Below are positions 20,018 through 34,159 of a stretch of 47,681 nt of DNA, piece by piece. Both the position numbers and the translations under genes were made by a program. This DNA is from Nitrospinota bacterium (GTDB lineage: Bacteria > 2-12-FULL-45-22 > JACOWJ01): the NCBI GenBank assembly GCA_016176845.1, contig JACOWJ010000027.1, positions 1-47,681 on the forward strand, in the 5' to 3' direction. The first letter of the stretch is position 1; every line of letters begins with the position of its first letter. Below the pieces are notes generated by a model, which ran no database searches, was not told the DNA's origin, and worked only from the letters and a program-made list of their open reading frames with translations.

Positions 20018-20018
20018 T

Positions 20019-20220
20019 CCCTTCGGGGAATTGCAAAGTGCAAAATGCAAAATGAAAAATGCAAAATGAAAAGTGCAAAATGAAAATTGAAACCCTTGGC
20101 CCGCTCATGGGGAGAAATCCCGGCATAATAAGGATTTGCGGAAAGGATAAGCGGACGAGGGGTTTAAACGTTGCATTTTGCAATTTTCACTTTGCATTTT
20201 TCAATGCTCGCGCAGCGAGC
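20019..20220. repeat. composite heptamer element (UUCG hairpin, TGCAAAA arrays, GCTCGC palindrome)
   Basis: It starts two bases after the amidohydrolase stop with CCCTTCGGGG (20019-20028). A left array of 7-bp units follows (TGCAAAG, TGCAAAA, TGCAAAA, TGAAAAA ...) to about 20089, then about 80 nt of interior. The right array is TTGCATT, TTGCAAT, TTTCACT, TTGCATT, TTTCAAT, and the end palindrome is GCTCGC-GCA-GCGAGC (20206-20220). The two arrays are inverted relative to each other. It ends 15 bp before the glycyl radical enzyme start. Related elements lie at 25684-25871, 25877-25976 and 28582-28951. Confidence 0.8.
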
Positions 20221-20235
20221 AGGGAGGGTTTTACG

Positions 20236-22779
20236 ATGCCAAGTCCGAGGAAAGAAGACCTGCAGGCCCTGGCCAGTCCGGGAAGCGTGAGCTTTGCCGA
20301 CCGGGTAGCCCAATCTAAACCCTACGAGTGGGGCTTCGGCTCCACGCCCCGCGTGGCCCAATTGCGCGAAGGGCTTTTCTCCAAGGCGGCCGTGATCAAA
20401 GACTGGGCCAGCCTGGGGGAGGGGATCACCACCTTCCGCAAGCAAGTCAAGATCGACATGGACCGGGCCCGCCTTGCCACCCGCTCTTATCAGGAGACCG
20501 AGGGAGAGCCCTGGCCCCTCCGCCGGGCCAAGGCCCTCTACCGGATCTGCGACGAGCTTCCCCTCTACATCAAGCCCCTGGACCTGATCGTCGGCAGCCC
20601 CAACAGCGCGCCCGACGAGGTCCGCTGGTACCCGGAGACGGACGTGAGCTACATGCCCCACGCCATCACCGAGGGGGGCTACCGGCACATGATCTCCCAG
20701 GAGGAGAAGCGGGAGCTGTTGGAGGAGACCTACCCCTATTGGAAGGACAAGACCCTGGCGGCGGCGACGGAGCGGGTCCTGCCCGATGACGTGAAGGACT
20801 TCTGCGATATCGGCCCCCACTCCACGGCCGGCTGTGCCAATGGCTGGCGCTCCCCGCGCGGCCTGGCCAACCCCAACTGGGAGGATCTCCTGAGCGAGGG
20901 GATCGCCGCCCGCATCCGGCGGGTGGAGAACAACTACGCCCGGCACAAGAGTTCGATGCCCGAGACGATGAGCCCCGCCGAGTACATCAAGCGGTGCCAC
21001 AACTATGAGGCCATGATCCTCGCCGGCAAGGCCATGCTGCGTTTCGCCGAGAGGTATGCCGAGCTGGCCTCCCGGTTGGCCGCCTCCGAGAAGGACGAAG
21101 GGCGCCGCCGGGAGCTGGAGGAGATCGCCGAGGTCTGCCGCTGGGTGCCCGCCAATCCCCCCCGGACCTTCCACGAGGCCCTGCAGGGCTACTGGCTGAT
21201 CGAGGTGGTCTTCCGCTACCTGGAGGCCCCCAACAATGGCAGCGGCGGGCGCATCGACCAGATCTGGTACCCTTATTACAAGAAGGATATCGAGGAGGGA
21301 CGGATCACCCGGGCGCAGGCCCTGGAGCTGATCGAGTGCTGGATGCTGAACGTCGAGGAGACCGGCATGCACTGCGAGGCCCCCGACTTCTTCACCATCG
21401 CTGCGGGCGGCTCGGTCTTTTATACCGCCAACGTTGCCGGCACCGTCGATGGGAAGGATGCCTCCAACGACCTGACCTGCCTGATCCTGGAGGCTCTCTC
21501 CGACGTCCGGACCTGCCAGCCTCCGGTGGCCTTCCGCTATGCCGCGCAGGTCTCGCCGGCGGTGATGGAGCGGGCGATAGACCTGTGCCGCACGGGAACG
21601 GGCCACCCGGCCTTCTTTAACGAAGACCTCTTCCAGAAATATGCCCGGATGCAGGGCATCTCCACCGAGGATTCGGAGAAGTTCAGCGTGGCGGGATGCC
21701 TGGCCCCCACGATCATCGGCAAGTCCATGAACGCCGGGGCTTACGCCGTCATGGGGCTTTATAACTCCATGAAATCCCTGGAGCTGGCCCTCTGGCAGGG
21801 GGTGGACAAGGTGAGCGGCCTGAAGGTGGGGGCGGACACGCCCGATCCCAAGAGCTTCAAGGGCGCCGATGACCTCCTCAGGGCGGTTTCCACCCAGCAG
21901 GAGCACATGGTGCGCCGATATGCCAAGTCCAACGATATCGGCTTTACCGTTATGATCGAGCGTTTCCCCATGCCGGCGGCCTCTTTCGTCCTGGACGACT
22001 GCCCGGACATGGGGATCGACGTCAACGAGATGAGCCGCCGTTACAACAGCTGGCCCTGCATGGCGGGGGCGGAGTTCAGCGCCATTGCCGACTCCCTGGC
22101 GGCGGTGCAGCGGCTGATCTACGACGAGAAGCGGGTCACTTGGGATGAGCTGCTGGAGGCCCTGGAGGCCAACTGGCAGGGACGCGAGGAGTTGCGCCAG
22201 CTCTTCCTCCGGGCGCCCAAGTATGGCAACGACGATGATTACGCCGATCAGTGGGCCATCAAGGCCCACCAGGGGGTCCTGGGGGCCATGAGCCGGGTTA
22301 AGGATGCCTGGGGAAAGCCCTGGTTCTATGATGGCAGCACGGCCATCTCCCCCATGGCCCTCCCGCGGGGCGTCCATGCCACTCCCGATGGGCGGCGGGC
22401 CGGAGAGCCTGGGTCCGACTCCAGCCTGGCCCCGGTGGCCGGCCGGGATACCAAGGGGCCTACGGCGGTCTTGAACTCGATCTCCAAGATCCCCTTCATG
22501 ATGAACGACCTGCTCAATCAGCGGTTCATGCCACAATTCCTGGAAGGGGAGTACAAGCCGCTCTTCGCCGACTACCTGCAGCAATGGTACGAGATGGGAA
22601 ACTCTTATCACGTCCAGTTCAACGTGATGAACAACGCGGTCTTGCAGGACGCCCAGCTCCATCCCGATCGTCACGCGAACCTGATGGTCCGGGTGGCAGG
22701 CTACAGCGCTTATTTTGTGGATCTGCCCAAGGAGGTCCAGGATCACATCCTCTCGCGGACGGAGCAGGCGTTCGCCTAA
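20236..22779 (+). CDS. glycyl radical enzyme of the pyruvate formate-lyase/CutC-like superfamily, function unknown
   Basis: An 847-residue radical enzyme. ATG 20236 follows AGGGAGGG; the frame stays open upstream to 20059 only because it reads through a repeat, so the longer form is rejected. The PFL-like N-terminal domain is recognisable (RAKALYRICDELPLYIKPLD, GRIDQIWYPYYKKDIEEG). The thiyl cysteine is Cys488 in VAGCLAP and the glycyl radical is Gly822 in RVAGYSAYF, 334 residues apart, 25 from the C-terminus. Size and spacing resemble choline TMA-lyase (CutC). However, the residue two after Cys, Glu in the GCVEP loop of dehydratases and lyases such as CutC and glycerol dehydratase, is Ala490. 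Benzyl- and alkylsuccinate synthases have CMSPG there, so it matches neither group. It needs activation by the radical SAM activase at 23510. It is cytoplasmic and oxygen-sensitive. Confidence 0.92.
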   Translation: MPSPRKEDLQALASPGSVSFADRVAQSKPYEWGFGSTPRVAQLREGLFSKAAVIKDWASLGEGITTFRKQVKIDMDRARLATRSYQETEGEPWPLRRAKALYRICDELPLYIKPLDLIVGSPNSAPDEVRWYPETDVSYMPHAITEGGYRHMISQEEKRELLEETYPYWKDKTLAAATERVLPDDVKDFCDIGPHSTAGCANGWRSPRGLANPNWEDLLSEGIAARIRRVENNYARHKSSMPETMSPAEYIKRCHNYEAMILAGKAMLRFAERYAELASRLAASEKDEGRRRELEEIAEVCRWVPANPPRTFHEALQGYWLIEVVFRYLEAPNNGSGGRIDQIWYPYYKKDIEEGRITRAQALELIECWMLNVEETGMHCEAPDFFTIAAGGSVFYTANVAGTVDGKDASNDLTCLILEALSDVRTCQPPVAFRYAAQVSPAVMERAIDLCRTGTGHPAFFNEDLFQKYARMQGISTEDSEKFSVAGCLAPTIIGKSMNAGAYAVMGLYNSMKSLELALWQGVDKVSGLKVGADTPDPKSFKGADDLLRAVSTQQEHMVRRYAKSNDIGFTVMIERFPMPAASFVLDDCPDMGIDVNEMSRRYNSWPCMAGAEFSAIADSLAAVQRLIYDEKRVTWDELLEALEANWQGREELRQLFLRAPKYGNDDDYADQWAIKAHQGVLGAMSRVKDAWGKPWFYDGSTAISPMALPRGVHATPDGRRAGEPGSDSSLAPVAGRDTKGPTAVLNSISKIPFMMNDLLNQRFMPQFLEGEYKPLFADYLQQWYEMGNSYHVQFNVMNNAVLQDAQLHPDRHANLMVRVAGYSAYFVDLPKEVQDHILSRTEQAFA

Positions 22780-22866: not shown

Positions 22867-23469
22867 ATGGGCACAGGGGTAATCACCGAGACCCAACCCC
22901 TCATTTTGCACCTCGGACCGACCTTGCGGAAGATGAGTGACCACGAATTTTTTGAGTTTTGCCAGTTGAACCGAGATTTGCGCATCGAACGTACCCGCGA
23001 GGGGGATTTAATCATTATGCCGCCAACTGGAGGGAAGACTGGAAGACGGAATTTTACCCTGACCGGACTTTTCACCGCCTGGGTCGAGGCAGATGGAAGG
23101 GGGATTGGCTTTGATTCCTCAACAGGATTTACACTGCCAAACGGTGCGAAGCGATCGCCAGATCTGGCGTGGATCGAACGCTCGCGGTGGGTAGCCCTGA
23201 CGGAAGAAGAAAAAGAGGGATTTCCTCCCCTGTGTCCGGACTTTGTCGTCGAACTTCGCTCACGGTCCGATGCGTTGGAGATGTTGCAGGAGAAGATGAC
23301 AGAGTACATCGCCAACGGTGCCCAGCTCGGCTGGCTTATCGACCCACAGGAGAAGAAAGTGTACATCTATCACCCATCGGCCGACGTCTGTTGCCTGGAG
23401 AACCCCGAAACCATTTCAGACGATCCGGTTCTCCCTGGGTTTGTGCTGGACTTACGACGAATCTGGTAA
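22867..23469 (+). CDS. Uma2-family (DUF820) putative restriction-fold endonuclease
   Basis: A 200-residue protein starting at ATG 22867 behind AGGCAGGAAAC. The PD-(D/E)XK-like core is visible: a Glu-rich N-terminal strand (LRIERTREGDLIIMPPTGG), then SPDLAWIERSRW with the conserved PD, then the PDFVVELRS strand and a later charged helix (ALEMLQEKMTEYIANGAQLG). The family is found in many genomes, often in several copies near mobile regions, and its physiological role is unsettled. Here it separates a glycyl radical enzyme from its activase, two genes that are normally adjacent. A heptamer hairpin lies directly upstream. An insertion into the operon is therefore likely. Confidence 0.8.
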   Translation: MGTGVITETQPLILHLGPTLRKMSDHEFFEFCQLNRDLRIERTREGDLIIMPPTGGKTGRRNFTLTGLFTAWVEADGRGIGFDSSTGFTLPNGAKRSPDLAWIERSRWVALTEEEKEGFPPLCPDFVVELRSRSDALEMLQEKMTEYIANGAQLGWLIDPQEKKVYIYHPSADVCCLENPETISDDPVLPGFVLDLRRIW

Positions 23470-23509: not shown

Positions 23510-24454
23510 ATGGGCTACGTCTTCAACATCCAACGCTTCTCCATCCACGATGGGCCGGGCATCCGGACGACCGTTTTCCTGAAAGGGTGTCCGCTGCGGT
23601 GCAGCTGGTGTGCCAACCCGGAATCGATCCGGCCGTTGCCGGAGATCATCACCCGGGATCTGAAGTGCATCGGCTGTGGGCGATGTCTCCAGGCCTGCTT
23701 CCAGGGGGCCATCGAGCTCCAGGAAGAGGGCAGGCGGACTATGCAGTGGGAGCAGTGCGATCAGTGCCTGCGGTGCGCCGAGGCCTGCCCCTCCGGGGCG
23801 ATCGATGTGATGGGAAGACAGACGAGTGTCGCGGAGGTGATAGAGGAGGTCTTGCGGGATCGTCGCTTCTATCAGCGGAACGGGGGTGGCCTGACCGTAT
23901 CGGGCGGAGAGCCTCTATTCCAGTGGGAGTTCGCCCGCGACCTGCTGGCCGAGGCCAGGCGGCAGGGGTTGCACACGACGCTGGATACCAGCGGTTACGC
24001 CGACTGGGATACACTAGAGAGGGTCCTGGAGCACGCCGACCTGGTGCTTTACGACCTCAAGCAGATGGACGACGAGCGGCACCGGCAGGGGACCGGGGTC
24101 TCCAACCGGCGGATCCTGGAGAACCTGGAGAAGGTGGCCAGGCGGTACCATGCGGCCGAGGGTAGTATCTCTTCTAGTGGGCAGCGAAGCCGGATCTGGA
24201 TCCGTTGCCCCGTCATTCCCGGCTTCAACGACTCGGAGGAGCACTTAGAGGCGCTGGCGCAGTTTGTCCGGCCATTGGGGGAGGCGGTGGAGCGGGTCTC
24301 CCTTCTTCCTTATCACCGGTTCGGGGAGCTCAAATATTCCGCGGGAGGGAAGGCTTACCCTTACGAGGGGCAGCCGATGCTTCCCGACGAAAGGATCGAG
24401 GAACTGAAGGCGCTCCTCGAGTCGTATCGGTTGACCGTCACTTTGAAGAAATGA
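23510..24454 (+). CDS. glycyl-radical enzyme activating protein (radical SAM, ferredoxin-type insert)
   Basis: A 314-residue [4Fe-4S] enzyme that cleaves S-adenosylmethionine and removes a hydrogen from Gly822 of the partner enzyme. ATG 23510 gives the usual beginning (MGYVFNIQRFSIHDGPGIRT). The radical SAM motif is Cys27-x3-Cys31-x2-Cys34 (GCPLRCSWC). Two extra four-Cys clusters follow, Cys53/56/59/63 (CIGCGRCLQAC) and Cys83/86/89/93 (CDQCLRCAEAC), as in activases of CutC, HpdB, BssA and glycerol dehydratase but not PFL activase. The SAM-binding TVSGGEP motif follows. No good ribosome-binding site is seen, and the start lies 41 nt after the Uma2 stop, so expression may depend on the upstream transcript. 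The partner is presumably the enzyme at 20236. Confidence 0.92.
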   Translation: MGYVFNIQRFSIHDGPGIRTTVFLKGCPLRCSWCANPESIRPLPEIITRDLKCIGCGRCLQACFQGAIELQEEGRRTMQWEQCDQCLRCAEACPSGAIDVMGRQTSVAEVIEEVLRDRRFYQRNGGGLTVSGGEPLFQWEFARDLLAEARRQGLHTTLDTSGYADWDTLERVLEHADLVLYDLKQMDDERHRQGTGVSNRRILENLEKVARRYHAAEGSISSSGQRSRIWIRCPVIPGFNDSEEHLEALAQFVRPLGEAVERVSLLPYHRFGELKYSAGGKAYPYEGQPMLPDERIEELKALLESYRLTVTLKK

Positions 24455-24578: not shown

Positions 24579-25703
24579 ATGGAGCGCGTATTGAAAAGGG
24601 GTTCCCGGGGAGCGATCCTCTCCCCGGAGTCTATCCTGAGCTCCACGCGCGAGAAGTTCCAGCAGGTCCTGAAGGAGGCCAGGCCCCTCTTCGGGTGGTT
24701 CAGCCTGACCGAATCCTGTGACCTGCGGTGCCGATACTGCTTTGCGGGCTCCAGTCGGCCCCTGGAAGAGGAGTTGACCACCCAGGAGGTCCTCCAGGTG
24801 GTGGACAACATCGCCGAAGCCGGCACGGAGGCGATCGTCTTCGGCGGGGGAGAGCCCACCCTGCGGAAGGATTTGGTCGAGATCGTGGCCCATGCCTCCC
24901 GGCGTATGGCGGTGGCCATCAACACCAACGGGCAGCTGATGGAGCCGGAATCGGTGAGGAGATTGGCCCGGGCCGGACTCTCGCAGCTGAAGGTCAGCGT
25001 GGACGGGCTTCAAGATCTCCATGATTGGAACCGGGGGGCGGGCACCTTCGAGAAGGCCTTGAATGCCCTGAAAGAGGCCCGGGCTGCGGGTATCCCCCGG
25101 GTGATCCTGATTGCGACCATCTCCCAGCTCAATTACCCACAGCTCGCGGAGATGGTCCGGCTGGCCATGGAGCAGGGGGTAGATTTTTCCGCTGTCGAGT
25201 TCCTCCCTCTGGGGAGAGGGACCTCGGGCCAGGACTGGGGCCTGACCCCGGAGCAGACCCGGGACATGCAGCGTTACCTGACGGAGGCCCGCCGGCTCCA
25301 TGGGTCGAAGCGGATCATCTTCGAGAACCGCTATATCATCGCAGAGGACGAGCACGCCCAGCGGATCTGTGCCGATCCACAAAGACCCACGGGGGTCTTC
25401 GATTTCTGCGTGGGCTGCCCCAACGGGATCTATCAGTACTGCATCAACGCGGAGGGAAAGGTCACGGCCGGAGACATCACCACCCTGGAGATCGGCGACC
25501 TGAAGAGAGAGCGACTGGGCGAGATCTGGCGCAACTCCGAGGTACTCCATCTCCTGAGAGACCGCGAGCAGCTCAAGGGCAAGTGCGGCGAGTGCGAATA
25601 CCGGTATATCTGCGGGGGATGTCGCAGAAGGGCTTACACCTACACGGGAGACCTGATGGCGGAGGACCCGGGTTGCTGGCGCTCCCCCCTTCGGGGGGAT
25701 TGA
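24579..25703 (+). CDS. radical SAM/SPASM protein, AhbC/AhbD/NirJ-like, copy 1
   Basis: A 374-residue iron-sulfur enzyme; ATG 24579 is preferred because AAGGGGGAA lies just upstream. The radical SAM cluster is Cys47/51/54 (ESCDLRCRYC) and the SAM loop is FGGGEPTLR. The pattern SVDG...HDWNRGAG and the C-terminal block GKCGECEYRYICGGC...AEDPGCW are the signature of haem-related SPASM proteins (AhbC, AhbD, NirJ). Auxiliary-cluster cysteines visible are 277, 280 and 288, and 336, 339, 345, 348 and 366. Known relatives modify tetrapyrroles (haem d1 and siroheme-derived haem), while other SPASM proteins modify peptides. The neighbours are a second copy and chelatase-like AAA and VWA genes, which favours a cofactor role (inference). 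The stop codon lies inside a repeat. Confidence 0.85.
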   Translation: MERVLKRGSRGAILSPESILSSTREKFQQVLKEARPLFGWFSLTESCDLRCRYCFAGSSRPLEEELTTQEVLQVVDNIAEAGTEAIVFGGGEPTLRKDLVEIVAHASRRMAVAINTNGQLMEPESVRRLARAGLSQLKVSVDGLQDLHDWNRGAGTFEKALNALKEARAAGIPRVILIATISQLNYPQLAEMVRLAMEQGVDFSAVEFLPLGRGTSGQDWGLTPEQTRDMQRYLTEARRLHGSKRIIFENRYIIAEDEHAQRICADPQRPTGVFDFCVGCPNGIYQYCINAEGKVTAGDITTLEIGDLKRERLGEIWRNSEVLHLLRDREQLKGKCGECEYRYICGGCRRRAYTYTGDLMAEDPGCWRSPLRGD

Positions 25704-25871
25704 AAAATGAAAAATGAAAAATGAAAATTGCGAACTTAGATTCCTCGCTTCGCTCGGAATGACAGCCGTTGAATCTGTCATTGCGAAGGAGCGATAGCGA
25801 CAAAGCAATCTAAGTTCAAGATTTCCAATTTCAGTCTTCAATTTACACTTTGCAATGCTCGCAAAGCGAAC
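25684..25871. repeat. composite heptamer element with nested palindrome
   Basis: It begins inside the last codons of the radical SAM gene with CCCCCCTTCGGGGGG (25684-25698). TGAAAAA units follow, then a nested REP-like palindrome (25732-25817), an AT-rich return array, and the end palindrome GCTCGCAAAGCGAAC (25857-25871). It supplies the stop codon of the upstream gene (TGA 25701-25703). Confidence 0.75.
25732..25817. repeat. REP-like palindrome nested in the composite element
   Basis: GAACTTAGATT (25732-25742) is the exact reverse complement of 25807-25817. Inside, TCGCTTCGCTCGGAATGACA pairs imperfectly with TGTCATTGCGAAGGAGCG and its continuation. It is the second copy of the motif at 10779-10914. 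Confidence 0.7.
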
Positions 25872-25876
25872 TAACT

Positions 25877-25976
25877 CCCTTGGGGGAATTAGAAAAAGCC
25901 AATGCAAAATGCCGGTAGGGAATTTTCAATTTTCAATTTTCAATTTCCAATTTCCAATGCTCGCCGCGCAGCGAGC
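25877..25976. repeat. composite heptamer element overlapping a coding start
   Basis: It opens with CCCTTGGGGGAATT (25877-25890). The array AATTTTC x3, AATTTCC x2 at 25921-25955 follows, and the end palindrome is GCTCGCCGCGCAGCGAGC (25959-25976). It lies directly behind the previous element with a 5-nt gap. The ATG of the next gene is inside it. Confidence 0.75.
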
Positions 25977-27068
25977 CTGGCATCTGCGCGAGATTTTCTG
26001 AACGCCACCCGGCAAAAGTTCCTCCAGCTGATCCAGGAGCGGCGATCCCTCTTCGCCACCTTCCAGGTCACAGCGGGCTGCAACCTGCGCTGTAAAAACT
26101 GCGGGGGCGACTTCACGGAGCCCCGGCCGGATGAGCTGGCCACCGAGGAGGTGTACGCCCTGATTCGCAACCTCCAGCGGGCCGGGACCACCTATCTCTC
26201 TCTGGGAGGTGGGGAGCCGACCATGCGGGATGACCTGCCACAAATCGTCGCCTACGCCTCTTCCCTCATGGGCGTAGGAATGGTCAGCAACGGCGTCCTC
26301 CTGGACGAGGAGTATGCCGAACTGCTGAAACGCGCCGGGCTCTCCGTGGTGGACATCAGCCTGGATGGAGCCTCAGCGGAGACCCATGATCCCCAACGTG
26401 GAGCAGGCAGCTTCGAGCGGGGGTTGCGGGCCCTCCAGAATTGTCAGCGGGCCGGCATCCCCGTGGTGGATCTTCAGACCACCATCTCCCAATTGAACTA
26501 TCCCGAGCTGCCCCGGATCATCCGGCTTGCCCTGGATCTGGGGGTCAACATCGTCGTCAACCAGTTCATCCCGTGCGGGCGGGCCCAGGGGAGAGACGAC
26601 CTGCTGTTGACCCGGGAGCAGCGAAAGGAGCTGCAACGGTATCTGATCGAGCAAGAACGGCTCTTCGGCAAGCAGCGGATCAAGTTCGATCGGTACTATA
26701 TCGTCTCCGAGGACGAGAAGGGCCAGAGGATCTGGGGGGACCCGGCCAAAAGCGGCTTCAACGTGGGCGATCCCTTCGGGATTTACGGATATGCCATCGC
26801 GGCCAACGGCAAGGTCACCCCGACGACCCCGGAGATCGAGATCGGAGACCTGAGGCGGGAAGAGCTCAGCGAGGTCTGGACCCATTCGGACGTGCTGGCC
26901 ACGCTGCGGAACCGGGAGCGGCTGAAGGGCAAATGTGGCCGGTGCGAATACAAGTTCATTTGCGGAGGGGACCGGAGGCGCACCCATGCCCTCACGGGGG
27001 ACCCGATGGGCGAGGACCCCCTCTGCTGGTATGAACCTTTTCTAGAGACTATGAGCTATGAGCCATGA
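25902..27068 (+). CDS. radical SAM/SPASM protein, AhbC/AhbD/NirJ-like, copy 2, repeat-derived N-terminus
   Basis: A 388-residue paralogue of the gene before. The radical SAM motif is Cys60/64/67 (AGCNLRCKNC), and SLGGGEPTMR, SLDGASAETHDPQRGAGS and the C-terminal GKCGRCEYKFICGGD...GEDPLCWY follow. The equivalent of Cys277/280/288 of copy 1 is missing (NVGDPFGIYGYAIA), so one auxiliary cluster is probably lost. Residues 1 to about 27 are encoded by a heptamer repeat; homology to copy 1 begins only at FLNATRQKF. No ATG, GTG or TTG lies in frame between 25902 and the conserved part, so either the repeat start is used or the native 5' end was lost. GGGGGAA lies 14 nt before the ATG, a poor spacing. 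The C-terminus overlaps the next gene by 11 nt. Confidence 0.8.
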   Translation: MQNAGREFSIFNFQFPISNARRAASLASARDFLNATRQKFLQLIQERRSLFATFQVTAGCNLRCKNCGGDFTEPRPDELATEEVYALIRNLQRAGTTYLSLGGGEPTMRDDLPQIVAYASSLMGVGMVSNGVLLDEEYAELLKRAGLSVVDISLDGASAETHDPQRGAGSFERGLRALQNCQRAGIPVVDLQTTISQLNYPELPRIIRLALDLGVNIVVNQFIPCGRAQGRDDLLLTREQRKELQRYLIEQERLFGKQRIKFDRYYIVSEDEKGQRIWGDPAKSGFNVGDPFGIYGYAIAANGKVTPTTPEIEIGDLRREELSEVWTHSDVLATLRNRERLKGKCGRCEYKFICGGDRRRTHALTGDPMGEDPLCWYEPFLETMSYEP

Positions 27069-28599
27069 GCTATTAGACCTCCTGGATGGGTACCAGCCCA
27101 TGCCCGTAGCCTACCAATTGAGGGGATCCATCCTCCAAAAGATCCGCCGGGGAGAGGACCCCTTGCCCGAGATTCAAGGCCGGGAAGAGACCAAACGGGA
27201 TGTCCTGCGCGCCTTGCTCTCCGGCCACAACATCTACCTGGTGTCGGAGGAGGGGACGGGAAAGACCCGACTGGCGAAGTCCCTGACCCGGCTCCTGCCT
27301 CCCATCCTTAAGGTCCGGGGTTGCCCGTATAACGACGATCCCAAGTGGCCCTCTCATTGGCTCTGTCCGCGTTGTCGGGAAAGCCGGAACCCCGCCGAAG
27401 AATATGGGATCGAAATGGTTCCGGGAGAGAAACGCTTCTCCCGCATCCAGGGCAACGATTACACCGATGAATCGAAGCTATTGGGCCTGAAGGACATCCA
27501 GGCGATCGTGAAGGGCAGAAGCCCCACGGATATTCACGCATTTGCGGCGACCGGGGCCTTTCGGGCCAACCGGGGCATCCTTTTCATCGATGAGCTGCCG
27601 GCCATCCGGACCAAGGTCCAGGTCCTGCTCCACCCGATCTCGGAGGAGAAGAAGGCCATCTTGGAGGAATACAACTGGGAGTACCCCCTGGACAACGTCC
27701 TGATTGCTACGGGAAATCCCGAGGGTTTTTCCCATATCAATGAAGTCCCCCGCCCTCTGCTGGACCGATTGGAGTTGATCTACATGCCCCTGCCCGGCCC
27801 GGAGGTGGAGCGGGAGATTATGCTGGGGGAGCGATTCCGGATCAAGGGGGAGTTTTTCGAGGCGGATGGGAAACCTCAGGCCCTCTGGCCTTCCATCCGC
27901 CTGGAAGAGCTGGAAAGGGATGTGGTCCTGCCCTGGTGGGTCCTTTACCTGCTCACCGGGGCGATTCACTATAGTCGCCGATGCAGCCTGTTGGATAGAA
28001 GGCCGAGCATTCGGGCCAGCTACCGGGCTCTAGACCACGCCTATGCCGGCGCGGAGCTGGAAGGCCGCAAGGTGGCCTCGCTCCAGGATGCCTGGGTGGG
28101 TCTGAGGTTGGCCCTGCGGGGAAGGATCGAATTGCGCTCCGACCTGATCGATTTCGAAAACCCCCGGGAAAACTTTACTCGGAGCGATGAGCTCAGCCAG
28201 GATCTGCTATGGAATGCCCTGGAGGGCTCCAAAGAGCTCTTCCTAGAGGGGTGTCATCGAGAAAGACTGGCGGAGGATATTGGCTCCCTGGCCTCTGAGG
28301 GGGTCGGGAACCTCTCCCATCGGCTGCCCAGGTACGGGGAGCTCCACCGGGCGATCGAGCGGATCAAAAGGGTAGCCGGAGAAAAGGTCAACCGCGGGCT
28401 CCTCAATCAGCGCGAAAGGGAGCTCCTGGATACTCCGGCTCAAGTTGACATCGAGACCCTGGATCAGTATCATTTTTCCGCATTGGAAACCCTCTGCAAT
28501 GCGGCCCTGTGCCATCAATGGATCTCGGAGGAGGCGATCCCCTGGATCCCGTTCATCCCGCGGTTGGTCTCCTGGTCTCGGCCCCTTCGGGGAATTTAA
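27058..28599 (+). CDS. AAA+ ATPase of the magnesium-chelatase ChlI/MoxR type
   Basis: A 513-residue ATPase. Walker A is SEEGTGKT (63-70), Walker B is LFIDE with Asp178/Glu179, and a sensor-like ATGNPEG follows. A cysteine knuckle between them (Cys89, Cys103 and Cys106 in GCPYN...LCPRC) resembles the zinc-binding insert of some ChlI-like ATPases. The C-terminal half is helical and of unknown type. The ATG at 27058 overlaps the radical SAM stop by 11 nt, which implies translational coupling. With a VWA protein 447 bp downstream, the pair looks like ChlI/ChlD, CobS/CobT, NorQ/NorD or CoxD/CoxE systems. These use ATP to insert metals into tetrapyrroles or to remodel metalloenzymes. The client is unknown. 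Confidence 0.85.
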   Translation: MSHELLDLLDGYQPMPVAYQLRGSILQKIRRGEDPLPEIQGREETKRDVLRALLSGHNIYLVSEEGTGKTRLAKSLTRLLPPILKVRGCPYNDDPKWPSHWLCPRCRESRNPAEEYGIEMVPGEKRFSRIQGNDYTDESKLLGLKDIQAIVKGRSPTDIHAFAATGAFRANRGILFIDELPAIRTKVQVLLHPISEEKKAILEEYNWEYPLDNVLIATGNPEGFSHINEVPRPLLDRLELIYMPLPGPEVEREIMLGERFRIKGEFFEADGKPQALWPSIRLEELERDVVLPWWVLYLLTGAIHYSRRCSLLDRRPSIRASYRALDHAYAGAELEGRKVASLQDAWVGLRLALRGRIELRSDLIDFENPRENFTRSDELSQDLLWNALEGSKELFLEGCHRERLAEDIGSLASEGVGNLSHRLPRYGELHRAIERIKRVAGEKVNRGLLNQRERELLDTPAQVDIETLDQYHFSALETLCNAALCHQWISEEAIPWIPFIPRLVSWSRPLRGI

Positions 28600-28951
28600 A
28601 CGGGGGGAATGAAAAAAGCAAAATGCAAAATGAAAAATGCAAATTGCATTTTGTAAGACCTCCCTCCCTTATTTTGCGCAATCGCGCTAAAGTCACCCTG
28701 TTGAGGGGCTCCCTCTCAGCCAAACCCCTCATACCCGGAGGAGATCCAAGCGCATGAAAATGGCCTACGGGGCTCCCTCTCCCCGGGGGGAATAACCCCC
28801 CCAGCCCCCCCTTCGTAAGGGGGGGAGAGGAGGGGTGATCTGGCATTTTCGTATCAACCCAGTAATCCCGGGTAGCATTAAAGGTTGATAGGGCCAGTTT
28901 TGTGTTACTGCCATTTTGCATTTTGCAATTTCCAATACTCGCGTAGCGAGC
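28582..28951. repeat. composite heptamer element with internal C/G hairpin (fills 28600-29046 spacer)
   Basis: CCCCTTCGGGG (28582-28592) begins inside the last codons of the ATPase gene, whose stop TAA follows 4 nt later. A TGCAAAA/TGAAAAA array to about 28655, a segment with a C/G-rich hairpin near 28771-28830, the right array (GCCATTT, TGCATTT, TGCAATT) and the end palindrome ACTCGCGTAGCGAGC (28937-28951) follow. Nothing else in the 447-bp spacer looks coding. Confidence 0.75.
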
Positions 28952-29046
28952 CAAGGACCCAAATGGAAGAGTGTAAGCGCTGTATTCGTATACCGGCAAT
29001 GCCCCCAGGGTGAGGGAGCGAGGTCCCATCCCGGGAGGATGGGATC

Positions 29047-30141
29047 TTGTCGGAAGTGGCCCATGCCGAAGAGCGGTCGGTGGTGGATTGGCTTCGCCGG
29101 CTGAGGCGTGACTTGGCGGATAGCATCCTGGGGAAGAGGGTGGCAGAGCAGGTGCGGGAGAGGCTCCAGGAGGAGGTGACACGTGGGGAAGGGAAAGAGG
29201 CGGGCGACTGGGATCGTTCCATCCTGGATAAGATCCTGCCCCGGGATATCGAAGGCTGCTTAGAGGAGTACGTTCAGCAAGGCGACATGAAGATCGAGGC
29301 CGGCCGGATCCGGATCACACCTCGAGGGGGTCGCAGGCTGGCCAGCCTGGCCAAAAAGAAGCTGGAGAAGCTGTCCCGAGAGCGGCCAGGCCTTCATCAG
29401 ACCCCAAAGTTGGGCTGCGGTTGGGACCTGGACCGTTCTTCGAGGAGGTATGAGCTGGGGGATGATTACCGGTTCCTCGATATCCAGAAGACCCTTCTCA
29501 ATTCCCTGGAAAGGAAGGCCCCGGCCGGCGGGCCGGCAGCAACCCTCCTGGATCTGGAGGAAGAGGACCTCGAGATTAACGAGAAGACGGAAGAGACCCG
29601 GATGTGCCTCGCCCTCCTGGTCGATGAAAGCGCCAGCATGGGAGAAGAAAAACGGGACGCTGCCATCGATACCTGCCTTGCGTTGGCCCGGTTGAAGGAG
29701 CCGCAGGACCTGTTGAAGGTCTTTATTTTTTCCTCGCAGACCCAAGAGATCCCCTGTTGGGAAATCCTGAACGTCAGTGCTCCCAAAGAGACTACCGACA
29801 TCAAACTCGCCTTACAGACCGCCAGGAGGGCCCTCAAAAGCGAAAGGGGGAGAAAACAGATCTACCTGATCACCGATGCGGAGCCCAATACCGAGAACCA
29901 TCAATACATCGGCTTCGAGAAAGCCGTTCCTGGAGTCATGAAAGAAGTATTCCGTTACAGACAAGAAGGCCTTACTTTGAACATCGTGATGTTGGATGAT
30001 AACCCTCTTCTAAAGGATTTCGCCTCGCGGTTGGCGCAATTTAACACGGGAAGGATTTACTTTGCCTCGGCTTCCGACCTGGGCAGGGTCGTGATCCAGG
30101 ACTACCTGACCTCCCGGAGAAGGGCCCGCCGGGGTAATTGA
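29047..30141 (+). CDS. VWA-domain protein, chelatase D-subunit-like
   Basis: A 364-residue protein. TTG 29047 is used because GGGAGGA lies 7 nt before it. Residues 1 to about 170 are helical and charged, ending with an acidic stretch (LLDLEEEDLEI). The VWA domain follows with the metal-ion-dependent adhesion site Asp193-x-Ser195-x-Ser197 (DESASMG). A Thr then lies in KETTDIK and an Asp in LITDAEPN, so the site looks complete. The family acts as partner of MoxR/ChlI-type AAA+ ATPases and binds the client protein or metal substrate. The gene pairs with the ATPase upstream, separated only by a repeat. No signal peptide is seen. Confidence 0.85.
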   Translation: MSEVAHAEERSVVDWLRRLRRDLADSILGKRVAEQVRERLQEEVTRGEGKEAGDWDRSILDKILPRDIEGCLEEYVQQGDMKIEAGRIRITPRGGRRLASLAKKKLEKLSRERPGLHQTPKLGCGWDLDRSSRRYELGDDYRFLDIQKTLLNSLERKAPAGGPAATLLDLEEEDLEINEKTEETRMCLALLVDESASMGEEKRDAAIDTCLALARLKEPQDLLKVFIFSSQTQEIPCWEILNVSAPKETTDIKLALQTARRALKSERGRKQIYLITDAEPNTENHQYIGFEKAVPGVMKEVFRYRQEGLTLNIVMLDDNPLLKDFASRLAQFNTGRIYFASASDLGRVVIQDYLTSRRRARRGN

Positions 30142-30165
30142 CACGAAAATGTCCCCTCACCCCAA

Positions 30166-30189
30166 CCCTCTCCCCCTCAGGGGAGAGGG
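30166..30189. repeat. perfect palindrome CCCTCTCCCC/GGGGAGAGGG
   Basis: A 10-bp stem with a 4-nt loop, 24 nt after the VWA stop. The surrounding CCCCTCACCCCAACCCTCTC is a known type of dispersed repeat. It is not followed by a T run, so a terminator function is doubtful. Confidence 0.6.
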
Positions 30190-30262
30190 AGCGCCACAAG
30201 CCGTTTTCATGGGCCTGGTTGCCCCAAGGGGCATGGGGCAGGATTAGGGGGAGCATCTGGAG

Positions 30263-31168
30263 ATGAGAAAAAGCCTTTTCAGAAAGTTGGCGGCGGAGAC
30301 GATCACCGAGGTTGTCTCCCCTCAGATTGAAGAGGTCAGAGAATCGGTCGAGAAAAGCGGATATCAGCTTCGGGAGTCCATGGAGCGGGAGATGATCTCC
30401 TTCAAAGGCATGATGGGCCAGGAGATGAATGCCCTCCGGGAAGTGATGGAGCGGGGCATCATCTCCTTCCCCGAGGTGATTGGCCAGGAGATCTGCTCCT
30501 TTAAGGAGACGGTGGGGGAAGAGATCGCTTCTTATCGAGAGGATATTCAGAGGGGGATCGTTTCCTTGAATGAGACGGTAGGCCGTGAGATGGGCTCTTT
30601 TCGGGAATCCATGGAGAAAGAGGTGGCCTCCTTTCGCGAGGTGACCAGGCGGGAGTCCCTCCAGGCGCGGGAGGCAGCGGGGACAGCGGGGACGCAGATC
30701 TTCCGGGAGACCCTGAGCCAGGATCTTTCCCGGCTGGAGGAGGCCATTGGGGTCCTGGTGAGCGGGCTGCTGGAAGGAGAAATGGCCTCGTTTCGGGAGA
30801 AGATGGAGGGAAAGATCGCCTTTCTCGAAGAGGAGCTGGGCGGTCAGATGGCCTCCATGAAGGAGAGCGTCGCAGGGATCCTCGGAGAGGGAATGGTCGC
30901 TTTCAAGGAGGCCCTGGAGAGCGGGCTCTCCTCCCTACGCACCAACCTGCAAGAGGAGAACGCTGCCCTCCGGGAGGCCATCAGAGAGATCGAAGAGAAG
31001 CTGAAGCGAGTGGAGGTCCGGCTGGGGGAGGATAGCCGGGAGATGAACCGCAAGCTGGACGACCTCTTCAAGGTGATGGTGCGGAGGGACGAGCATCAGT
31101 CCTTAATGGAGGAGCTCCATCGGCTCAAGGAGGAGTTGGAGCGGCTGAAGGGAAAGGTGCTGGCATAG
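30263..31168 (+). CDS. coiled-coil protein built of 11-residue (hendecad) repeats
   Basis: A 301-residue, almost entirely helical protein with no recognised family. From residue 43 to 130 eight consecutive 11-residue units can be read, for example EMISFKGMMGQ, EICSFKETVGE, EIASYREDIQR, EMGSFRESMEK and EVASFREVTRR. Consensus: (E/G)-(hydrophobic)-x-S-F-(R/K)-E-x-(hydrophobic)-x-x. At least five more follow at about 170-250 (EMASFREKMEG, QMASMKESVAG, GLSSLRTNLQE). Hendecads form right-handed coiled coils, suited to long fibres or membrane-parallel helices. The C-terminal 60 residues become heptad-like (LHRLKEELERLKGK). It follows the VWA gene by 121 bp and converges on the M16 gene with only a 3-bp gap. 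Its role is unknown. Confidence 0.75.
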   Translation: MRKSLFRKLAAETITEVVSPQIEEVRESVEKSGYQLRESMEREMISFKGMMGQEMNALREVMERGIISFPEVIGQEICSFKETVGEEIASYREDIQRGIVSLNETVGREMGSFRESMEKEVASFREVTRRESLQAREAAGTAGTQIFRETLSQDLSRLEEAIGVLVSGLLEGEMASFREKMEGKIAFLEEELGGQMASMKESVAGILGEGMVAFKEALESGLSSLRTNLQEENAALREAIREIEEKLKRVEVRLGEDSREMNRKLDDLFKVMVRRDEHQSLMEELHRLKEELERLKGKVLA

Positions 31169-31171
31169 CCG

Positions 31172-34159
31172 TCACAATTTTCCCTCGTAGGGACCGGCGA
31201 CCACCACAGTCAGATTCTCCGGATGGAGGTATTTTCGGGCCATCTCCCTGACCTGCTCTCGAGTTATGGAGCGGATCAGGGAGGGATAGCGCTCCACATA
31301 GTCCATTCCCAATTGGTAGATCTCCTGGCCCAGCAGCATGCCTGCGATGCCCGCATTAGACTCCATGGAGAGGGGCAGCCGGCCCACGAGATAGTCCTGA
31401 GCCGCCTTCAGCTCCTTCAGGGATACCCCCTTTTCCTGCAGCTTTCTGAGGTTCGCCTTCACCCGGTCGATCGCCTTTTGGGTATCCCGCGGGCTCACCT
31501 GGAGGTAGACCGTCCAGGGCCCCTCCCCCAGGCTCGCATGGAAAGAGGTGTAGACCCCATAGGTCAACCCCTCCTTCTCTCGCAGCTCGGCCATCAGTCG
31601 GCTGCCAAAGCTGCCTCCTCCCAGGATGTAGTTCATCACCGTGCAGGCGTAGTAGTCGGGGTTATGCCGGGAGATCCCCTGATGGCCCAGCCGCACGATC
31701 TCCTCCGACTTGTCCTTCATGGGGATCACCCGGGTCAGGGGCCTGGCCGATAGCGGGGTGGGAGGGATGGAGAAGGCCGGCCTCTCTCCCTGGGCCTTCC
31801 AGCTCCCGAAGACCTTCTCCATCAGTCCCTTTACCTGGGCGACCGAGACGTCCCCGACGATGACGAAGACGCTGGCGTCCGGCCGGTAGTGGCGTTGGTA
31901 GAAAGAAAGGATATCGGGTCGACGGATCCCTTTCACCCCCTCCTCCGTGCCCAGGGCGTCGTGATGGTAAGGGTGTCCCGGAGGAAAGAGTAAGCCGCTC
32001 AGCTCTCGTCCGGCGCGGGCCGCCGGATCGTCCTCCTGTTCCTTCAGGGCGCTCAGCACCTCTCCCCGCAGCTTCTCGATCTCCGTCTCGGGGAAAGAGG
32101 GATGCAGGAGGACCTCCCCCAGCAGTTCCAGCACCTCCCCGAAGTTCTCCGAAAGGCAGTAGGTCGAGAAGTTCATCCCCTCCGTTCCTGCGCCCGTGCC
32201 GAGGGAGGCGCCGATGAAGTCCAGCTGCTCGGCGATCTCCTGAGAGGTGTGCTTCTCGGTGCCCCGTTCGAGCAGGGAAGCGGCGAAGCTGGCCAGGCCG
32301 GGTTTGTCAGGAGGGTCATACATGCCTCCGGCTTTGAGGTTCCCGCTGAGGGCCACGGTCTGGTTGGCGTGGTTCTCCCGGACGATCAAGACCAGGCCGT
32401 TCGGCAGGACCAGTCTCTGCGTCTCGGGCTTTACGCTTTGCGTTTTGCGTTTGGAGGTCCGGGCAGAGGCCGGCGCGCTCTCCGTAACGCCTGGCTCGCG
32501 ACCCTTCTCCCCGCCTGTCCGAAAGCCCTTCTCCCTCAAAACCGGATTCCCCTGACGCCCCTCTTGGGCGTGGGATTGGCCGGAAGCCAGCCCCCCCTTC
32601 AAAAAGCGCAGCCCCCGTGCATTGCCTCGATCATATCCCTTGGAGAAGGAAAAGCCCTTGTTCGCTGATTGGGCATTGGAAACCGTGTAAGATAAGGAGG
32701 GTAAATTTATCGTATAGGAATTCCCATTTTTAGGGTACAGAGGATAGGAATACTGTCCCCTGTCCCCTGTCCCCTGTCCCCTGTTCCCTAATTTATCAAT
32801 TTTCAATTTCCAATTTTCAATTTTCAATCCCGTCCGCCCCTTGGGCGGCAGAGGGACGAAATGGCCCACGGTGCGGTTGTCGGGAGAGAGATATTGGTTG
32901 GCCACCCTTTTCACGTCTTCGGCCTTTACCTGGCGAATGCGATCCACATAGGTGTCCAACAGCTTATAGCTGGCAACGGTCTCGAAATAGCCCAGGTGCG
33001 AGCCCTGGCTGGACACGCTGTCGTCGGCGTAGATGAATTGGGCTTTGGTCTGATTGACCGCCTTCTGGAGCTCCCTGGGTGTGAGTGGCTCCGCTTTGAC
33101 CTTTTCCAGTTCCGCCAGCAGGACCTCCTCGACCTTGGAGGGATCCACCCCTTGCCGAACGGTCGCGGTGAAGCTGAACCATCCAGGGTCGATGGCCTGA
33201 TGGAGCTGGGAAGAGACGGAAGTCGCCAGCTGCGTTTCGACCAGGGCCCGGTAAAGGCGGGAGCTCCGCCCCTCGGTGAGGGCGCTATCCAGCACCGATA
33301 GGGGATAGGTATCCGGATGGCGCAAGGGGCCCACGTGATACTGGATCTGAAGGTAGGCCGTGGTTCCCTCGCGTTTTACCACCACCCGGCGCTCTCCCTG
33401 CTGGGGCTGCTCCACCGTCACGACCGGCGGGAGGACTGGGCCCCGAGGGATGGGCCCGAAGAGCCGGCGCACCCTGGATAACACCTCTTTCGTCTGGAAG
33501 TCGCCCACGACGACCAGGGTGGCGTTATTGGGGATGTAGTAGCGTCGGTAGTAGCTCCGCACGGCCTCTGGGGTGAAGGACTGGACATCGCTCTTGAAGC
33601 CGCCCACCGGCCAATGGTAAGGATGGGCCAGGAAAGCGCTCCCCTGGACCACCTCGTCCAACGCCTCCTGGGGATCGTTCTCGTGCCCTTCCAGCTCGGA
33701 CAGGACCACCTTCTTCTCGCTCGCCAAGTCCTGCGGAGACATTCGGCTGTTCACCATTCGGTCCGCCTCGATCCTCAGGGCGATATCGAGCTGGTCTCGG
33801 GGCAGGGTGATATAGTAGGCGGTGTAGTCGTAGCTGGTGAAGGCGTTATTTTCCCCGCCGGCCCCCGAGACCAGCCGATCGATCTCTCCGACCTTGAGCC
33901 TCTTGGTGCCCTTGAAGAGCAGGTGCTCGATCTGGTGAGAGATCCCTGTAATGCCAACGCTCTCGTTGCGCGATCCCACCCGGTACCAAACATAGGTCGT
34001 TACGACCGGGGCGGCGTGGGCCTCCTTGGTCAGGACCTTGAGGCCGTTGGGCAAGAGGGTCTCCTGGACCTGGACCTTTGGGGCAGCCCAGGAAGCGCTG
34101 ACCAGGAGGTGGAGGCCGAGGGCGATGGCGAAGAGGATCGAGAAGCGATATCGTGGCAT
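31172..34159 (-). CDS. exported double M16 (insulinase/pitrilysin family) peptidase
   Basis: A 995-residue protein with signal peptide (FSILFAIALGLHLLVSASWA), so periplasmic. The N-terminal M16 module has the inverted zinc motif His75-x-x-Glu78-His79 (HQIEH) and a downstream Glu in SELEGHEND. The second module, from about residue 570, aligns with the family but has LASFAASLLERGT where HxxEH should be, so it is non-catalytic. It keeps the SRLMAELREKEGLTYGVY substrate-binding region. Such active/inactive pairs are often separate genes; here they are fused. The linker (about 430-570) is unusually long and contains a translated heptamer repeat (about 445-484). The two halves form the usual clam shell, which degrades peptides. 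Confidence 0.9.
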   Translation of the reverse strand: MPRYRFSILFAIALGLHLLVSASWAAPKVQVQETLLPNGLKVLTKEAHAAPVVTTYVWYRVGSRNESVGITGISHQIEHLLFKGTKRLKVGEIDRLVSGAGGENNAFTSYDYTAYYITLPRDQLDIALRIEADRMVNSRMSPQDLASEKKVVLSELEGHENDPQEALDEVVQGSAFLAHPYHWPVGGFKSDVQSFTPEAVRSYYRRYYIPNNATLVVVGDFQTKEVLSRVRRLFGPIPRGPVLPPVVTVEQPQQGERRVVVKREGTTAYLQIQYHVGPLRHPDTYPLSVLDSALTEGRSSRLYRALVETQLATSVSSQLHQAIDPGWFSFTATVRQGVDPSKVEEVLLAELEKVKAEPLTPRELQKAVNQTKAQFIYADDSVSSQGSHLGYFETVASYKLLDTYVDRIRQVKAEDVKRVANQYLSPDNRTVGHFVPLPPKGRTGLKIENWKLKIDKLGNRGQGTGDRGQYSYPLYPKNGNSYTINLPSLSYTVSNAQSANKGFSFSKGYDRGNARGLRFLKGGLASGQSHAQEGRQGNPVLREKGFRTGGEKGREPGVTESAPASARTSKRKTQSVKPETQRLVLPNGLVLIVRENHANQTVALSGNLKAGGMYDPPDKPGLASFAASLLERGTEKHTSQEIAEQLDFIGASLGTGAGTEGMNFSTYCLSENFGEVLELLGEVLLHPSFPETEIEKLRGEVLSALKEQEDDPAARAGRELSGLLFPPGHPYHHDALGTEEGVKGIRRPDILSFYQRHYRPDASVFVIVGDVSVAQVKGLMEKVFGSWKAQGERPAFSIPPTPLSARPLTRVIPMKDKSEEIVRLGHQGISRHNPDYYACTVMNYILGGGSFGSRLMAELREKEGLTYGVYTSFHASLGEGPWTVYLQVSPRDTQKAIDRVKANLRKLQEKGVSLKELKAAQDYLVGRLPLSMESNAGIAGMLLGQEIYQLGMDYVERYPSLIRSITREQVREMARKYLHPENLTVVVAGPYEGKL
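32713..32850 (-). repeat. heptamer-period element inside the M16 coding sequence
   Basis: Read on the plus strand: the marker TATAGGAATTCCCATTTTTA, then TGTCCCC units from 32754. The array switches without losing 7-bp phase to TCAATTT units up to about 32827, and ends with the palindrome CCGCCCCTTGGGCGG. It is translated in frame as part of the interdomain linker, with no stop codon. Confidence 0.8.

Follow-up and report, generated by a model that had tools for sequence, protein, structure and literature searches.

The window analysed here is the whole 47,681-nt contig JACOWJ010000027.1 (C31) of a Nitrospinota bacterium (genome G000; 1.53 Mb, 68% complete). Its plus strand encodes two paralogous SPASM-type radical S-adenosylmethionine (SAM) proteins, rSAM1 and rSAM2, followed by a ChlI-like AAA+ ATPase of 513 aa (AAA513), a VWA protein and a coiled-coil protein with 11-residue repeats. 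These five genes were already recognized, in this order, in the preliminary description of the segment 24,579–31,168, which omitted an oxygen-sensitive glycyl radical enzyme (GRE) and its activating enzyme (activase) upstream of rSAM1. The set of GRE, radical SAM, AAA+ and VWA genes is real, recurs among unrelated microbes, and represents a new variant of the arrangement found in the bss operon of benzylsuccinate synthase. We put at about even the chances that these genes make up the accessory portion of a GRE cluster, its genes being helpers of the GRE, while construction of a pigment-like cofactor by these genes is probably not the case.

The GRE is placed in its superfamily by two Pfam matches, PFL-like with 503 bits and Gly_radical with 82 bits. 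Both catalytic loops are present, the Cys loop as AGCLAP and the Gly loop as RVAGYSAYF, and the enzyme looks active. The Glu of the Cys-Val-Glu loop has a role in GRE dehydratases and CutC-like eliminases. This Cys-x-Glu is missing in the window (AGCLAP) and in G061 (AGCVAM), versus GCVE in alignments of HypD, glycerol dehydratase and CutC. Scores against solved structures of CutC, diol dehydratase, benzylsuccinate synthase and HypD are all similar (350–396 bits), and the HypD model is not reached (446 bits, cut-off 1100). CoA-transferase and mutase genes in the neighbourhood point to acids of CoA pathways as candidate substrates. The activase matches TIGR02494 with 358 bits (cut-off 174). In G001, the sole other genome of the phylum among those compared (85% complete), the genes for GRE, activase and rSAM1 are contiguous (L123), with 79%, 68% and 75% identity to the window. 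Because they stand together there, with rSAM2 on a separate contig and AAA513 not found, these three genes form the tightest unit, which sequence comparison shows to have been retained by two families belonging to one order. GRE and activase genes are direct neighbours in L123, and the Uma2-type gene that separates them in the window is therefore probably an insertion.

Both radical SAM proteins exceed the Pfam cut-offs for Radical_SAM and SPASM (117 and 26 bits in rSAM1) and are 49% identical to each other. The CxxxCxxC motif and the C-terminal block CGxCxYxxxCGG[CD]RRR...EDPxCW occur in both, so that the C-terminal signature of AhbC, AhbD and NirJ noted previously is indeed there, but rSAM2 has Asp in place of the fourth Cys of the block and has lost the upstream auxiliary cysteines. 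Identical replacements characterize the rSAM2 orthologue of G001, found alone on its contig (67.5% identity). In a tree of 45 rows, rSAM1 and rSAM2 group with proteins of G001, G060, G061 and G063 (clade support 100/99), a clade named here family X. It is separate from the clade holding the genome's AhbD (98/90) and from a clade (100/97) of G060 and G061 proteins adjoining HemB, which we take to be AhbC from their position and N-terminus.

At the threshold of E ≤ 1e-80, family X is present in 2 of 386 relatives (G000 and G001) and, within the phylum to which G060 belongs, in 15 of 395 genomes. A VWA gene of some kind lies within ~5 kb in nine of the 17 high-scoring loci (18 genes), some of which are related and hence do not stand for 17 independent events. 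The AAA513-VWA400 pair accounts for two of the nine, the window and L202, the latter with the VWA gene ~5.7 kb and the AAA gene 4.2 kb from the radical SAM gene. In four others (L199, L200, L201, L204) a NorQ/CbbQ-like AAA of ~292 aa is accompanied by a VWA protein of ~580 aa, and in three (L110, L197, L198) a VWA gene of the ~580-aa type stands alone. With VWA genes this frequent and the gene set recurring in G579, maturation of a metalloenzyme, the second function proposed in the preliminary description, is a possible role. Sister radical SAM proteins of lower score served as controls at 10 of 13 places (L111, L112, L207-L214; G397:C290, G396:C63 and G398:C256 were left out), and none of the 10 has a GRE, AAA or VWA gene of the types considered here. 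Nearby contig edges lower the neighbour counts at L107, L108, L197, L206, L044, L051 and L160.

AAA513 (Pfam Mg_chelatase/AAA_5 above cut-off) has Walker A SEEGTGKT, Walker B ILFIDEL and the invariant cysteines C89, C103 and C106, and its nearest solved structures are ChlI/BchI. The VWA protein (VWA_2, 31 bits, above cut-off) has an intact metal ion-dependent adhesion site (MIDAS; DESASM, TTDI, ITDAEPN). Walker motifs, MIDAS and gene adjacency together identify a MoxR-type AAA+-VWA pair. The VWA frame also runs from an ATG at 28,963, beginning with MEECKRC as in relatives, and is interrupted by an in-frame TGA at 29,011, which may be a real mutation, an assembly error or be bypassed by restart at TTG 29,047. 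The repeat-rich gap between the AAA and VWA genes is 447 bases long, compared with -79 to +87 in 12 relatives measured.

A contig scan disclosed 10 relatives of AAA513, with 48–64% identity over most of the length, in Deltaproteobacteria, Dehalococcoidia, a Syntrophobacterales, a Proteobacteria and three archaeal metagenome-assembled genomes (MAGs). At E ≤ 1e-60, the gene was found in none of 384 genomes across a spread of bacterial families (G000 and G001 excluded) and in 2 of 8 genomes of the class of G060, G060 being one. Together with L163, L172, L202 and the window, the scan relatives make up 14 loci in 13 genomes. A VWA gene follows AAA513 in 13 of them (in L044 it is seen in part only), and in the remaining one, L051, the contig ends ~0.2 kb past the AAA reading frame. 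In five of the 14 loci (window, L044, L163, L172, L202), distributed over 4 of the 13 genomes, AAA513 has a GRE of the window's subclade only a few genes away. G579 (L202) carries the full set, GRE, activase and radical SAM gene with a divergent AAA-VWA pair, so that the neighbourhood of SPASM, AAA and VWA genes is not peculiar to the genome studied. G396 (L172) combines GRE, activase, AAA and VWA genes, as does G061 at two places on separate contigs (L044, L163). Sequence comparison shows the AAA+ and VWA genes to be a two-gene unit of their own, joined to such GREs in several lineages.

The closest parallel in organization is the bss operon (bssDCABEF), in which genes for a GRE, an activase, an AAA+ and a VWA protein stand together as in the window. 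BssE, as a NorQ-like AAA protein, would differ from the ChlI-like AAA of 513 aa. The window differs further in that small Fe-S subunit genes were not found, none of the Cys-rich open reading frames (ORFs) of 35–130 aa being convincing by eye in the window (18.9–31.3 kb), L123 or L044, and in the activase, which scores 250 bits against the BssD model (cut-off 496). Its VWA protein has ~400 aa, against 580 in BssF according to PMC5874301, and a SPASM protein is added. Located beside benzylsuccinate synthase, bssE and bssF are described as AAA+ and VWA genes of uncertain function (PMC7285207). BssE is essential, and toluene no longer supports growth when bssF is disrupted, a disruption that may be polar (PMC5874301); a chaperone role was proposed for both (PMC7285207, PMC5874301). 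A TIGR04003 (BssD) search, used as a route to BssE/BssF, had no hit in 386 genomes and none in 14 controls, and is uninformative since the controls were empty. No benzylsuccinate synthase plasmid was recognized among the 40 listed of 147 records. A search of open PubMed Central papers revealed no description of a set combining GRE, SPASM and AAA-VWA genes.

Reading the genes as helpers of the GRE, the activase would put the glycyl radical on the enzyme, and the AAA hexamer, coupled through the VWA MIDAS, could exert an ATP-driven pull on it. Such a pull might expose the buried glycine loop or reset a damaged or product-bound GRE. Remodelling of the GRE is the most likely role of the AAA-VWA pair because of the analogy with BssE/BssF, the conformational change required to expose the Gly loop of GREs, according to a passage in PMC12358834, and the twisting model in which NorQD remodels its client enzyme, as described in part of PMC13036017. 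NorQ/NorD, CbbQ/CbbO and other MoxR pairs likewise combine a hexameric-type AAA+ gene and a MIDAS-bearing VWA gene, whereas the AAA of the window is nearest to ChlI/BchI, is extended at the C-terminus and carries three conserved cysteines. SPASM proteins in general carry out modifications of proteins and peptides. From this activity and from synteny, we infer for rSAM1, and perhaps for rSAM2, a second post-translational modification, made either on the GRE or on a different protein belonging to the set, which would be the least certain step.

Several observations weigh against the assignment of all these genes to a GRE. In 9 of the 14 loci, the stretch that was read has no GRE near the AAA513-VWA pair, and when GREs were sought at E ≤ 1e-40 in 11 genomes with the AAA gene, seven had some and four had none. 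For these two reasons, the original client of the pair was probably not a GRE. A GRE lies near a family-X gene in only 3 of the 17 loci (window, L123, L202), and no AAA orthologue was found at E ≤ 1e-60 in the 85% complete G001. In addition, the AAA and VWA proteins of the window do not convincingly resemble the pair of BssE/BssF size in the MoaD/MoeB-like operons presented below.

These points bear on an alternative that we regard as possible if somewhat unlikely, in which the AAA-VWA pair is a general chaperone of metalloenzymes, located beside GRE genes by chance in some genomes, and only the radical SAM pair is dedicated to the GRE. The radical SAM and GRE set of G001, in which AAA513 was not found, would fit it, as would the different neighbours of the pair in archaeal and Dehalococcoidia MAGs, including three AOR-like genes in a row in L045 (with a shared N-terminus; one confirmed by Pfam) and an HdrB-like gene in L050. 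Four genomes (G000, G061, G396 and G579) argue against it, each having the pair only a few genes from a GRE of one subclade. Decay of a chance assemblage, with once-useful genes scattered by repeats and insertions, could be suspected from the in-frame TGA, the enlarged gap in the AAA-VWA pair, the Uma2 insertion and the repeats beside and within genes. It is highly unlikely in view of full-length open frames with intact motifs, a third-position GC of 0.72–0.87 across the GRE, activase, radical SAM, AAA and VWA genes, and recurrence of the set elsewhere.

The preliminary description suggested the making or metallation of an unusual tetrapyrrole by the radical SAM pair and AAA-VWA. The nearest curated models speak for this idea: AhbD, NirJ2 and TIGR04053, with the C-terminal block in common, for the radical SAM proteins, and Mg-chelatase ChlI/ChlD and cobaltochelatase-like proteins, which are also the best solved-structure matches, for AAA513. 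All scores are nevertheless far under the cut-offs. The two radical SAM proteins obtain 195.9 and 196.2 bits with AhbD (TIGR04545, cut-off 500) and 195 and 194 bits with TIGR04053 (cut-off 395); for AhbC, NirJ and NirJ2 (cut-offs 650, 515 and 500), the values are 154, 172 and 186 bits in rSAM1 and 139, 150 and 166 bits in rSAM2. AAA513 reaches 44.9 bits with TIGR02030 (cut-off 467) and 47.9 bits with TIGR02442 (cut-off 779), and its VWA partner is short and separate. Family searches of neighbouring genes brought up neither a large chelatase subunit nor a heme gene. The genome has its own protein above the AhbD cut-off (560 bits), with HemB just upstream, family X is a different clade, and the conserved neighbours are GRE and activase. 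The tetrapyrrole function, extremely unlikely in our estimate, was rejected on the cut-offs, the tree and the separate AhbD. SPASM proteins often mature ribosomally made peptides, and the best solved-structure match of rSAM1 is SkfB, the sporulation killing factor maturase (94 bits). Maturation of such a peptide here is still very unlikely, as no peptide-maturase model was at cut-off among 25 curated models listed, and Cys-rich ORFs of 35–130 aa include no convincing precursor in the window (18.9–31.3 kb) and none shared with L123 or L044, a search that a Cys-free precursor would escape.

Family X also participates in a second type of operon. The order MoaD-like gene (C-terminus PFAAG), O173, NorQ-like AAA, VWA, family-X radical SAM gene and MoeB-like gene is conserved in L199, L200, L201 and L204, and no client enzyme was recognized beside it. 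O173 (~173 aa; e.g. L044 3818-4339) joins the two operon types, with 38 invariant columns in 11 members: it accompanies GRE and AAA-VWA genes in L044, L163, L172 and L202, and MoaD, AAA292, VWA570 and radical SAM genes in L199, L200, L201 and L204, and in part in L110. The L044 member has no Pfam or NCBIfam match at thresholds, except for an NCBIfam hit at E 0.006, far below the cut-off. O173 was not found in G000 or G001. A broader proposal, which we make tentatively and consider rather unlikely, is that a GRE needs an activase, a SPASM protein as second modifier and an AAA+-VWA opening motor, and that the same SPASM family also serves a MoaD/MoeB-linked client with its own AAA-VWA pair.

Related GRE genes show further peculiarities. 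In two genomes the gene is divided into two ORFs in the same frame, L202 5229-6839 and 6900-7850 in G579 and L160 69-1634 and 1668-2645 in G060, the first carrying the Cys loop and the second the Gly loop. The break has one position in both genes (81% amino acid and 76% DNA identity), probably in a loop, and the two perhaps represent a natural two-chain glycyl radical enzyme. Recoding of in-frame stops was dropped as an explanation because the two genes do not have the same stops (TAA; TAG-TAA) and both have a new ATG after a Shine-Dalgarno-like AGGAGG. Four tandem GRE genes occupy L167 5935-15843 in G063, a Dehalococcoidia MAG, and 24 GRE matches occur in the single genome of G060, a Deltaproteobacteria MAG. 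Other GREs, of ~40% identity, are located in L165 and L166 beside genes resembling benzoyl-CoA-reductase-type subunits and an activator, as judged by eye.

One gene family adjoins the AAA-VWA pair in five of the first 10 loci, and is likely a winged-helix regulator according to weak Pfam matches of one member. No viral relatives of AAA513 were found, and none of 11 matching plasmid records covers >80% of its length. Its AlphaFold model has a low-confidence core (residues 128–244 under 50), and nothing matched it at E ≤ 0.001 in a fold search (ChlI came closest, E 0.036); neither was used as evidence. The VWA model matched NorD VWA of NorQD complexes among many other VWA domains in Foldseek, while VIA-align confirmed the VWA fold and nothing beyond, NorD not being among the 50 rows listed. 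Both genomes of the order have a second ChlI-like AAA gene and a larger AAA-containing frame, in L039 6734-11120 (contig C49 of G000) and in L040 (G001), with a P-loop gene bearing GKGG[TV]GKT close by.

Table 1. Genes of the GRE cluster and adjoining features in the window
Feature	Position	Strand	Basis and remarks
GRE, PFL/diol-dehydratase type	20230-22779	+	ORF from 20059, likely start 20230; Pfam, motifs
Uma2-type gene	22867-23469	+	Pfam Uma2, 149 bits
GRE-activating enzyme (activase)	23510-24454	+	ORF from 23318, start 23510 inferred by eye; TIGR02494
rSAM1, SPASM-type radical SAM, family X	24579-25703	+	ORF open from 24513; Pfam
rSAM2, paralogue of rSAM1	25902-27068	+	Pfam; first codons are intergenic repeat
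AAA513, ChlI-like AAA+ ATPase, 513 aa	27058-28599	+	Pfam, Walker motifs
N-terminal MEECKRC piece of VWA gene	28963-29013	+	In-frame TGA at 29011
VWA partner gene	29047-30141	+	Pfam VWA_2; intact MIDAS
Coiled-coil protein, 11-residue repeats	30263-31168	+	Repeats seen by eye

Short A/T-rich repeats with 14-base periodicity are dispersed in the window (20018-20093, 25701-25734, 25923-25967, 28596-28657, 28901-28945 and 32793-32851). They are placed between genes of the set, where the rSAM2 frame starts, and within an M16 peptidase gene, whose frame stays open. The hendecad units of the coiled-coil protein, described previously, are visible by eye; its membership in the gene system is doubtful, and no relative above 40 bits was found in loci L033-L052.

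In the field of toluene degradation, the reason why certain GREs are accompanied by AAA+ and VWA proteins is an open question (PMC7285207, PMC5874301). An independent second type of GRE, associated with another AAA-VWA pair and with a SPASM radical SAM protein conserved in the unit, makes this question testable beyond benzylsuccinate synthase. If the SPASM protein does modify the GRE, it would be an addition to the enzymes altered by radical SAM chemistry beyond the glycyl radical, to our knowledge a short list.

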